Source: Terriglobia bacterium
Lineage (GTDB): Bacteria > Acidobacteriota > Terriglobia > UBA7540
Reading direction: 5' to 3'
Assembly: GCA_030041095.1 (NCBI GenBank)
Contig: JASHON010000169.1
Coordinates: 1 to 64,000, forward strand
DNA: 64,000 nucleotides
Position 1 is the first letter of the stretch. Each line of letters opens with the position of its first letter. Shown piece after piece: positions 1-45,928 of this stretch. The translations under genes and the position numbers were made by a program. Below the pieces are notes generated by a model. The model was not told the origin of the DNA. It did not search any database and saw only the letters and a program-made list of their open reading frames with translations.

Positions 1-182
1 CCGCCCTGGCCCATCACTTGGCCTGCCTCCTGTATCGCATGCTCCGGTTCGGGACTGAATACCACGACAAAGGGATGGAACATTACGAACGCAAATATCG
101 CGAAACGCAGATGAAATGGCTTCAAAAACAAGCTGCCGCCCTCAACATGCAACTCATTGCGATGCAGTCGGTTGCCAAGTGA
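1..182 (+). CDS. IS110-family transposase, C-terminal part (cut by window edge)
   Basis: The reading frame is open from the window edge (codons from base 3) to TGA at 180-182 and gives 59 residues. The pattern ALAHHLACLLYRML, then FGTEYHDKGMEHYERKY and a Lys/Gln-rich helix, matches the C-terminal helical tail of IS110/IS1111 transposases, which follows the serine-containing Tnp_20 domain. These enzymes are DEDD-type recombinases that act with a structured non-coding RNA from one element end. The N-terminal catalytic part lies outside the window, so I cannot say whether the gene is intact. The call rests on remembered family pattern only. Confidence 0.72.
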   Translation, partial: ALAHHLACLLYRMLRFGTEYHDKGMEHYERKYRETQMKWLQKQAAALNMQLIAMQSVAK

Positions 183-42883: not shown

Positions 42884-43435
42884 TTATCCGAGCTTGCGAA
42901 GCAGGCGCGGCGTCAGCCACCAAACGAGCCGGCCAGGAGACTTGGCGGGCAGGCGATCAAGCTCGATCAAGCAGCATCCACCCTTTTTGAAGCCAAAGTT
43001 CGCTGCGTGGGACGCGCCGATGAGCTCAGCGGCAAGCTGGCTCAAGGAAGGCTCGTGACCTGCCAGCAACACGCGCCTCCGCTCCGGGTGTTGCTCAAGA
43101 AACGCCGTCACCTTTGCCGCAGAAACCTGGCCTGGAGCAAGCGCATCACACGATTCAAGCACCGCGGTAGCTGAGAGCTCTTGGGCGAGAATTTCGGCAG
43201 TTTCAACGGCGCGCAGCAGCGGGCTGCTGACGATCCAATCCAACTCAACGCCGGCGCTCTGCAAGCCTTTTGCGATGGTTCTCATCTTCAACCGGCCTTC
43301 GGATGTCAGCGGCCGCTTCGCATCGTCTGAGCTGCCCTGAGCGTCCAAATCCGCCGCAATGCCGTGACGCATCAGGTAGATCTGGTAAGGTCCGGCGTCC
43401 GCCCGTTTCCCTGCAGGTTTCTTGTCATGAGCCAT
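42884..43435 (-). CDS. sixA: Phosphohistidine phosphatase SixA-like
   Basis: A 183-residue histidine-phosphatase-superfamily protein. Catalytic Arg-His is in YLMRHGIAAD (His24), the second Arg in SSPLLRAVETAEIL and the second His in LLAGHEPSLSQLAAELIG. The short, lidless form matches SixA, which removes phosphate from histidine in Hpt/PTS-Ntr proteins. No two-component or PTS gene is close, so the partner is unknown. A TATAAT reads on the minus strand at 43500-43505, 65 bases upstream, without a good -35. Confidence 0.85.
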   Translation of the reverse strand: MAHDKKPAGKRADAGPYQIYLMRHGIAADLDAQGSSDDAKRPLTSEGRLKMRTIAKGLQSAGVELDWIVSSPLLRAVETAEILAQELSATAVLESCDALAPGQVSAAKVTAFLEQHPERRRVLLAGHEPSLSQLAAELIGASHAANFGFKKGGCCLIELDRLPAKSPGRLVWWLTPRLLRKLG

Positions 43436-43513
43436 GGTAACCGCCCCGTCCCTGGCAAAGTCAGATTCCGATGACGACGCTATCTGCCCGGAACCCGTAA
43501 TTATACTCTTCCC

Positions 43514-43981
43514 TTACGCCTCATCCGTTCCGTCGGCAGACGACTGTGCCCAAAGCAATTCGAATTCGCCGGCATAAGACTTCGCAACAATCGGATCGTG
43601 GACGATAACCAGATTCTCGTAGTTTTCCCTGTCGGATTCTACAGTCCAGTTATAACTTCCGGTAATCGCCGTTTTGCCGTCGACAACGGCGAACTTATGA
43701 TGCATTTTCGTCTTCGGTCCCAAGCGTCCGAAGGACAGGCGCCATGCCACCGCTCTCTGTTCTTCGATCAGTTCGGCGGCAAGGCCCTCCTTGAACTTAC
43801 TTCGATCCAGGATCAAGCGAACCCGAACACCGCGGCGCGCGGCCTCGGCCAGCGCCTTCTTAAGCTCCGGGTGGCCGAGACGGTAGAGGGCGCAATCGAT
43901 CGATTTCGTCGCTTCGCCCAACATTTCGTCAATCCGTCCCGCAATGGGATTTGATCGGCTGAAGAGGAATTCGGCGTCCAT
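43514..43981 (-). CDS. Single-HKD phospholipase D-like nuclease
   Basis: A 155-residue protein with one PLD motif, His94-x-Lys96-x4-Asp101, followed by GSYNW (HHKFAVVDGKTAITGSYNW). One motif per chain is typical of the Nuc/BfiI-type endonucleases, which dimerise to build an active site. ILDRSKFKEGLAAELIEE fits the fold. There is no signal peptide, unlike secreted Nuc. The ATG at 43981 lies 1 base after the stop of the GNAT gene, so it is translated as part of one operon with fmdB and the GNAT gene. Confidence 0.85.
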   Translation of the reverse strand: MDAEFLFSRSNPIAGRIDEMLGEATKSIDCALYRLGHPELKKALAEAARRGVRVRLILDRSKFKEGLAAELIEEQRAVAWRLSFGRLGPKTKMHHKFAVVDGKTAITGSYNWTVESDRENYENLVIVHDPIVAKSYAGEFELLWAQSSADGTDEA

Positions 43982-43982
43982 C

Positions 43983-44843
43983 TCACTTCCCCTGGGCACG
44001 AACTGTGGGTGGCATTCCGATGCCTCGACGAAGCTCATAAAAACATCGAGTTGCTCCGGCTTTCTGCATTCGGATGAATCCTGCCACGCTGTAGCCGGCC
44101 TTAAAATAGTGCGTGAAAATCCTGCGCGTCTGCAGTCGCCAGCGCCGGGCCAAATCCGGAGCGTCACGCCGCATCGAATCCGAGTCTGCGGGAATCTCAA
44201 CCCAGACCTTCGGGCCCGCGAGATTCAGGATGATCCGCTCGTTCTCGAGAAAGCCGTTTTCGGAGGGTCTTGTAAGGTTGGCGTGAGTTGAGGGAAGCTG
44301 CAGCGGAACATCCGAACGGGTGCGCAACCCAATCTCTGCTCGCGCGATTTGCCAATTTACGATGAACCGGTCGCTCGGCAGGCCTCCCTCGATGGTGCTG
44401 GGAAAATCGCCATAACAATCCGGAACGTATTCTTCCACCTGCGCGCCCAAGCGCCCTAAGTTGAGAGCAGCGTTGCGGCTCTGTAAGGGATCGAAAGTCC
44501 AACAGATCGAGCGAAGACCTTGCCGGAGGGCAAGGCGGCGATGGGCGCGTTTCATCAGGAAACCCAGACCTCGACCCCGGTGGCCCTCACTCACTGCCAT
44601 CAGGTGAGACCAATGAATCAGCCGGTCCCGATACCGGCCCAGGAAAGCATAGATGAAACCGCACAGCCGCTGCTCGAGGAAGGCTCCGAGAACGGCCCCG
44701 CCATGTTCCTGCGTTACCTTGAGCACTTCTGCCGACACGGAGATTCGGCCCCAAACCGCCCTTTGGATTTCCTCGCACGCTCGGAATTCCTGCAGGGTTC
44801 GAAGCAGGCGAATCTGCGGCAAAAGTCTCCCTGCCCGAGTCAT
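43983..44843 (-). CDS. GNAT-superfamily acetyltransferase (COG3375-like)
   Basis: A 286-residue protein. The GNAT acetyl-CoA motif is seen in LMAVSEGHRGRGLGFLMKRAHR (about 96-116), with SICWTFDPLQSRNAALNLGRLGAQV after it. The C-terminal half (about 140-286) is a second region typical of the predicted COG3375 group, whose substrate is unknown. The start at 44843 shares ATGA with the fmdB stop, a 4-base overlap that implies translational coupling. The longer frame to GTG 44885 would overlap fmdB and is rejected. Confidence 0.85.
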   Translation of the reverse strand: MTRAGRLLPQIRLLRTLQEFRACEEIQRAVWGRISVSAEVLKVTQEHGGAVLGAFLEQRLCGFIYAFLGRYRDRLIHWSHLMAVSEGHRGRGLGFLMKRAHRRLALRQGLRSICWTFDPLQSRNAALNLGRLGAQVEEYVPDCYGDFPSTIEGGLPSDRFIVNWQIARAEIGLRTRSDVPLQLPSTHANLTRPSENGFLENERIILNLAGPKVWVEIPADSDSMRRDAPDLARRWRLQTRRIFTHYFKAGYSVAGFIRMQKAGATRCFYELRRGIGMPPTVRAQGK

Positions 44844-45055
44844 TCGCCGCACATTCCCCGACGAGGGGCGCCACAAGCCCCACACGGCCCCGGCTCAGGG
44901 GAGGAAACCGCATTTCCCGAAACCGCAAAAACAGAGAGGAGTTGCTGGATGCGCGGGCTGGAACATTGGGTGCAAACAGCTTTCGCGGAGCCCGAAATCA
45001 AAATCTTCTCGAATCGCGCACCGCAGTCGCGACACTCGTATTCAAAGATCGGCAT
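44840..45055 (-). CDS. FmdB-family zinc-ribbon protein
   Basis: A 71-residue protein. It starts MPIFEYECRDCGARFE and carries two CxxC knuckles, Cys8/Cys11 and Cys28/Cys31, forming a zinc ribbon. The last 20 residues have more cysteines (PCGACGAPRRGMCGE), also common in the family. FmdB-like ribbons are linked to regulation of amidase/formamidase genes, but most have no known role. It heads the operon with the GNAT and PLD genes and has a clear promoter 18 bases upstream. Confidence 0.9.
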   Translation of the reverse strand: MPIFEYECRDCGARFEKILISGSAKAVCTQCSSPRIQQLLSVFAVSGNAVSSPEPGPCGACGAPRRGMCGE

Positions 45056-45072
45056 GGATTTTCCTCTTTCCG

Positions 45073-45101
45073 AATATATCCAACCGGGTTTCCGTTTTCA
45101 A
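45073..45101 (-). promoter_or_regulatory. Predicted sigma-70 promoter of the fmdB-GNAT-PLD operon
   Basis: On the minus strand TTGAAA (-35, 45096-45101) and TATATT (-10, 45073-45078) are separated by exactly 17 bases. Transcription would begin near 45066, 11 bases before the fmdB ATG. Confidence 0.72.
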
Positions 45102-45115
45102 TCCGGACGGTTGTA

Positions 45116-45145
45116 TGATGAGGGTGGCGATAGTTACCCTCATCA
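45116..45145. promoter_or_regulatory. 30-bp dyad (operator candidate) between the fmdB operon and the YqgE gene
   Basis: Perfect 10-bp inverted arms TGATGAGGGT and ACCCTCATCA flank a 10-base spacer. The site starts 15 bases upstream of the -35 of the fmdB promoter. For the rightward gene, a TATGAT at 45114-45119 would place transcription start inside the dyad. It could therefore be an activator site for one operon, a repressor site for the other, or an RNA hairpin in the rightward leader. Confidence 0.55.
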
Positions 45146-45226
45146 GGATGGAACAGCGTGCGCGTGCTTGCATGGCTCCAGAGAAGCCGAAACGCTGCAT
45201 TATGGCCTTTCGCAACAGCCTCTGGC

Positions 45227-45928
45227 ATGAAGACGGCCGGCCCCGGGGCAGGCCGCCCCAACGTGCTGGCAGGCGCATTGCCCGTCTGCCTGGTGTGTGC
45301 GCTTGCTGGCCCAACCCTGGCTGCAGCTACGAAGACTCCGGAACAGCCACTCTACCTCGTTGCCCGCCGCGGTTTGCTGGACCCCTACTTTCGACATTCG
45401 GTAGTGCTGATGCTACCCCTCGACGCAGTGCCGATACCGGTGGTGGTGGGTATCATCATCAATCGTCCCACGCCACTCATGCTGCGGACGCTGTTCCCCT
45501 TCAACGTACGGCTCAAGCCGAGCGCCGCGGTTGCCTACTTCGGAGGGCCTGTAGACATTCGTGATGTCAGCATCTTCTATCGGTCAAACCACCCACCCGA
45601 TCATGCCATCCCCATTGGTCCGGGCGTTTATGCCTCTTTCGACGCAGCCGGAGTTGACAAGCTGCTGGCGGAAAAGCCGCAGGACGCAAGCCGGAGGGTG
45701 TTCCTCGGACGCGCTCAATGGTCGTCCGAGCAGCTTCGAGGCGAAATGCTTCGGGGCTCCTGGTACAGTATCCGCGCCGCAGGTAGCCTGATTTTCAGCA
45801 AGCAGGATTCAGACCAAGTGTGGCAGAGCTTGCTCGACCGGGCTCGCCCCGGTATGCTGGCAATCAAAGTGTCAGCCAACAACCGTCCAGAAACAATCCG
45901 GAGCGACCAGCGCTCGGCAAATCCTTAG
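45227..45928 (+). CDS. AlgH/YqgE-like protein with signal peptide
   Basis: A 233-residue protein of the UPF0301 family: LYLVARRGLLDPYFRHSVVLML, VGIIINRPTP, FGGPVDIRDVSIFYRS and RVFLGRAQWSSEQLRGEM are clear. Unlike typical YqgE proteins, it carries an N-terminal hydrophobic segment, LAGALPVCLVCALAGPTLAAA, that looks like a signal peptide with cleavage near residue 33. Export or membrane anchoring is thus likely. ATG 45227 is preferred; an upstream in-frame ATG at 45158 would hide the signal. Function is unknown in the family. Confidence 0.8.
   Translation: MKTAGPGAGRPNVLAGALPVCLVCALAGPTLAAATKTPEQPLYLVARRGLLDPYFRHSVVLMLPLDAVPIPVVVGIIINRPTPLMLRTLFPFNVRLKPSAAVAYFGGPVDIRDVSIFYRSNHPPDHAIPIGPGVYASFDAAGVDKLLAEKPQDASRRVFLGRAQWSSEQLRGEMLRGSWYSIRAAGSLIFSKQDSDQVWQSLLDRARPGMLAIKVSANNRPETIRSDQRSANP

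Follow-up and report, generated by a model that had tools for sequence, protein, structure and literature searches.

In the 64,000-nucleotide stretch of Terriglobia DNA analysed here (the window), genes for an FmdB-family zinc ribbon protein, a GNAT-fold acyltransferase, a phospholipase D (PLD)-superfamily protein and a SixA phosphohistidine phosphatase appear, from gene order in relatives, to constitute a real four-gene transcription unit conserved across many related uncultured soil acidobacteria. The unit is made of mostly ordinary parts and one unexpected bond, that of PLD with SixA, which by genome comparison is the tightest in it. The explanation preferred here, to which we give about an even chance, is an ordinary lineage-specific, probably constitutive cytoplasmic FmdB-GNAT-PLD-SixA operon with two separable modules, probably involved in nucleotide and phosphate economy. 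What was a vague nuclease-plus-transferase grouping is in this way defined as a conserved operon, one bond of which can be tested, and the annotation of the GNAT gains a small-molecule lead. Literature on SixA with phospholipase D and on FmdB with zinc ribbon yielded no description of this gene group. The features of the unit are as follows.

45116 to 45145, no strand assigned: perfect 10-10-10 dyad (arms 45116–45125 and 45136–45145), upstream of the promoter
45073 to 45101, minus strand: sigma70-type promoter, TTGAAA-17-TATATT, ahead of FmdB
44840 to 45055, minus strand: FmdB-family zinc ribbon protein, 71 aa, first gene of the unit
43983 to 44843, minus strand: GNAT-fold acyltransferase, 286 aa, second gene
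43514 to 43981, minus strand: PLD-superfamily protein with a single HKD motif, 155 aa, third gene
42884 to 43435, minus strand: SixA phosphohistidine phosphatase, 183 aa, fourth gene, absent from the preliminary description

The preliminary description gave the first three genes at these positions and on this strand, which is confirmed, as are the tight junctions it reported: FmdB and GNAT overlap by ATGA (44840–44843), and a single base (43982) separates GNAT from PLD. Its three-gene operon stands as a real unit cut short, since SixA, 78 bp past PLD on the same strand, was missed. The ATGA overlap occurs in this genome alone; in relatives, profile scans place 10–338 bp between the matched domain of FmdB and that of the next gene. 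Sequence inspection shows codon 8 of the GNAT frame to be TTG behind AGGGAGA, a candidate alternative start. Across 43000–45600 no terminator-like site was found, and the sequence is consistent with a probably cotranscribed, constitutive operon. The PLD/SixA gap holds a perfect TATAAT (43500–43505, minus strand) without a good −35 element, a possible second promoter for SixA. A divergent AlgH-like (DUF179) open reading frame (45158–45928, plus strand) starts 103 bp away from FmdB; its place is taken in many relatives by an HU-like gene, likewise divergent from FmdB.

Forty genomes of the order, among them that of the window, were searched, and relatives of PLD were found in 35 of them and of GNAT in 37. 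Profile scans of the loci (G001, G009 and G025 have no row in the table of relatives) revealed collinear GNAT-PLD-SixA in 17 of the 39 other genomes, spread over 12 genera: G003, G004, G012, G013, G014, G018, G020, G021, G022, G027, G030, G031, G032, G035, G036, G037 and G038. The unit was to be considered unreal if its genes were not adjacent in related genomes; the linkage of GNAT and PLD in these 17 speaks for it. At these loci SixA is present in 17/17 and FmdB in 11/17, and the six genes flanking the unit in the window in 0/17; because the loci were chosen by GNAT-PLD linkage, only SixA and FmdB count as independent evidence. The GNATs of G003 and G035 are fragments at contig ends. In G038 the PLD gene is disrupted, its sequence spread over several frames (L078:6890-7260), with GNAT and SixA still in place. 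A multihaem c-type cytochrome gene lies on the opposite strand between GNAT and PLD in G003, G013 and G014 (L071:7351-8514, L074:2643-3785, L075:571-1734).

Counting the best PLD match per genome gives 26 relatives of this type and three more distant ones. SixA comes after PLD in 25 of the 26, the matched domains lying −26 to 185 bp apart, and in the last (G007) the contig ends 87 bp past PLD. SixA was found at none of the three more distant PLD loci (L030–L032) and near PLD in 0/9 loci outside the order. The gene order thus divides into two modules, FmdB-(DUF72)-GNAT and PLD-SixA, which lie on different contigs in G002, G005, G006, G015 and G016; PLD is away from GNAT in these five and also in G008, G019 and G028. 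FmdB-PLD-SixA occurs without GNAT in G034, and GNAT-SixA without PLD in G024, G026, G029 and G039, as well as in G017 with a 1.1-kb gap. Since the modules are separable and split among relatives, an obligate three-gene machine or complex was rejected. The functional pairing of GNAT with PLD, on which the preliminary description relied, is likewise not supported, as these genes part in several genera and the constant partner of PLD is SixA. Comparison of genomes thereby shows the gene content, order and separability of the unit, together with its conserved promoter.

The good promoter noted earlier is present and conserved: of the 21 genomes tested, the window's among them, 11 have TTGAA[AG]-16..18-TATA[GT]T immediately ahead of FmdB, a post hoc test, as the pattern was picked after inspection of the upstream sequences and the genomes are kin. 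None of 97 control starts (GNAT, PLD, SixA, DUF72, CHAD and HU genes) has the pattern, nor does any of the 50 shuffles of each region. The perfect 10-10-10 dyad also exists as described and, for the 102-bp intergenic stretch in which it lies, is seldom matched by chance (0.2% of Markov shuffles). As a conserved operator it was rejected: with up to 3 mismatches allowed, it was found at FmdB in 0/39 other genomes of the order, and the whole window has 4 dyads of this kind against 2.7 expected.

The earlier family calls of FmdB zinc ribbon, GNAT and single-HKD PLD all pass Pfam or NCBIfam cut-offs, GNAT weakly. PLD scores 96.5 bits against PLDc_2 (cut-off 27) and has the signature HxKx4Dx6GSxN, which is given in the part of PMC5714352 consulted; H94, K96, D101, G108, S109 and N111 are invariant among 16 PLD sequences. 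Its AF2 model (monomer, pLDDT 89.5) is matched by Foldseek with Nuc (1byr), NucT (6ehi) and Zucchini/MitoPLD (4ggj), and also with a FAM83 domain. Superposition on 1byr gives TM 0.86 and rmsd 1.7, the Nuc/NucT fold covering the full chain. The protein resembles Nuc, NucT and Zucchini in whole-chain fold (TM 0.79–0.86 on the query), in the signature and probably in forming a homodimer; it differs from them in that no signal peptide or membrane anchor is apparent on inspection of its N-terminus, in falling below the NCBIfam NucT cut-offs (best 63.2 against 211 bits) and in being encoded with SixA. Membership in DISARM or another defence system was rejected, as the similarity to DrmC is weak (52.6 bits, cut-off 133) and PADLOC has no match for GNAT, FmdB or SixA.

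GNAT passes PF00583 narrowly (24.3 bits, cut-off 20.7). Residues of about 8–172 of its AF2 model (pLDDT 92.9) match GNAT chains with Z up to 18.8, N-terminal and RimI-type acetyltransferases being the closest, and an extra C-terminal domain occupies residues of about 175–273; such model-based matches say little about the substrate. The neighbours of its relatives were compared at the best 80 loci from the genome_contigs collection, in which each species has one genome. Among these matches, 24 are Terriglobia/Acidobacteria records of the window's lineage, some labelled gp13, with FmdB at 16, SixA at 16, PLD at 12 and a MenC-type enolase at 0; the other 56 belong to Chloroflexota, Bacillota, archaea, other acidobacteria and more, and 40 of them adjoin a MenC-type enolase, with FmdB, PLD or SixA at 0/56. 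A representative of the enolase reaches 370 bits with the menC model, whose cut-off is 200.65. The window GNAT is 31–41% identical to its relatives outside the lineage; GNAT signature residues are kept in both, and the motifs WTFDPL..RN, YG and DR are common to it and the enolase-linked proteins.

We take the enolase-linked GNAT to be the partner of N-succinylamino-acid racemase, of the COG3375 type. Such GNATs reportedly (Sakai 2006) act as amino-acid N-succinyltransferases in the N-succinylamino-acid racemase route, a Geobacillus pathway; no account of a GNAT partner was found in the literature on N-succinylamino acid racemase. The window GNAT is like the racemase-linked one in sequence over the GNAT domain and in motifs, and unlike it in its own lineage's lack of the adjoining enolase among the matches listed. 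The enolase neighbourhood argues for a small-molecule acceptor, and for placing GNAT in a small-molecule family, not in a nucleic-acid modification system. Since the MenC-type enolase of the window's genome is located elsewhere (contig C117, L229), GNAT may act in trans as its partner, or else use a new substrate. At L229 no GNAT lies within the 1.5-kb flanks of the enolase. A second full-length GNAT of this type, sharing 47% identity, adjoins an SDR gene in the same genome (L095:7628-8464, contig C7). The GNAT tree, inside a clade of which this C7 paralogue lies, is poorly resolved (14/30 inner branches open), and on it the linked label requires 8 changes against a shuffled mean of 10.2; the tree does not discriminate between an ancestral and a later linkage. 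Shorter GNAT paralogues (L096, L099, L100, L101) have a MazG nucleotide pyrophosphohydrolase gene on one side and a MenC-type enolase on the other, with a rhomboid gene near.

FmdB passes NCBIfam TIGR02605 (46.7 bits, cut-off 31.3) and Pfam Zn_ribbon_8 (PF09723; 49.1 bits, cut-off 34.4), has two CxxC pairs and is upstream of GNAT across genera in the profile scans. The FmdB family is linked with formamidase. The window protein is like this family in its TIGR02605 match and unlike it in its neighbourhood, as no formamidase gene was found among the adjacent genes identified. SixA scores 94.2 bits against TIGR00249 (cut-off 74.5), with catalytic RHG and GHE motifs invariant among 10 sequences. 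In both respects it is like SixA of E. coli (1ujb) and Alr0221 (3f2i), from which it differs in its partnership with a PLD protein.

Chance proximity in a single genome would be in keeping with the short intergenic gaps common in bacteria; with the order kept in 12 genera and the window's flank genes at 0/17 loci, it is scarcely credible. The preliminary description proposed a modification-plus-nuclease unit acting on nucleic acid; in such a unit GNAT would acylate nucleic acid and PLD cut the unmodified form, or the reverse. Adjacency of the two genes in 17 of 39 other genomes, the nuclease fold of PLD (1byr, 6ehi, 4ggj) and its slight DrmC likeness agree with this proposal, which we nevertheless regard as very unlikely: the outside-lineage kin of GNAT pair with the enolase (40/56 among the matches listed) and none with a PLD, eight genomes have PLD away from GNAT and G034 does without GNAT, and PADLOC recognizes neither GNAT nor FmdB nor SixA. 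SixA could instead serve PLD directly by dephosphorylating its catalytic phosphohistidine, so as to clear a dead-end phospho-enzyme or switch the nuclease off. The close PLD-SixA spacing in 25/26 relatives is consistent with such a role, as is the asymmetry of the pair: SixA persists without PLD, and among the 26 relatives PLD of this type was never found without SixA. According to the parts consulted, PLD enzymes work via a phosphohistidine (PMC5714352) and in E. coli the catalytic phosphohistidine intermediate of Ndk is a target of SixA, which helps starvation survival (PMC12934123). The cleavage intermediate, however, is a phosphodiester on His still joined to nucleic acid, not an obvious SixA substrate; moreover, the linkage can be positional and is not seen outside the order (0/9 loci), so we hold direct action on PLD to be improbable, if less so than nucleic-acid modification. 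If true, the precedent set by Ndk would hold for the PLD superfamily as well, with a nuclease reset or switched off by a dedicated phosphatase encoded alongside.

In the preferred nucleotide- and phosphate-economy operon, PLD is predicted to be a homodimeric endonuclease/phosphodiesterase cutting single-stranded nucleic acid via a covalent phosphohistidine, and SixA to strip phosphate from phosphohistidines of cytoplasmic proteins, such as NPr- or Ndk-like targets. Both would act in nucleotide and phosphate economy, probably under starvation. GNAT would N-acylate a small amino-acid-like metabolite, FmdB would be a small zinc-ribbon protein of the unit, and the four genes would be adjacent through shared expression and not as subunits of a single machine. 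This operon is favoured by literature on NucT, SixA and CHAD and by SixA-CHAD-thymidylate-kinase-like neighbours. In the parts of the sources consulted, NucT is a nuclease that has been connected with purine salvage and with natural transformation (PMC5714352), SixA dephosphorylates NPr (PMC7948535, PMC6282199) and CHAD binds polyphosphate (PMC6537752). A generic stress or housekeeping operon is possible. A further alternative, somewhat less improbable than direct action of SixA on PLD and still unlikely, is a polyphosphate/phosphate-economy neighbourhood of SixA, CHAD and thymidylate kinase with FmdB, GNAT and PLD attached. CHAD adjoins SixA or is close to it in L067, L068, L071, L073 and L094 and is 5–6 kb off in L077 and L092, several relatives have SixA near CHAD and tandem thymidylate-kinase-like genes, and the legend of Figure 2 in PMC10892726 groups SixA, PPX, dTMP kinase and CHAD for archaea. 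Such a neighbourhood is absent from the window and most relatives; the window unit has no adjacent CHAD, that of its own genome being on another contig. PPK and PPX were not found among the neighbours scanned, and a polyphosphate kinase beside SixA was rejected, the large neighbour in L066 being a GGDEF protein. The tandem thymidylate-kinase-like pair is convergent with CHAD near SixA in L068 (1073-2544), L073 and L094.
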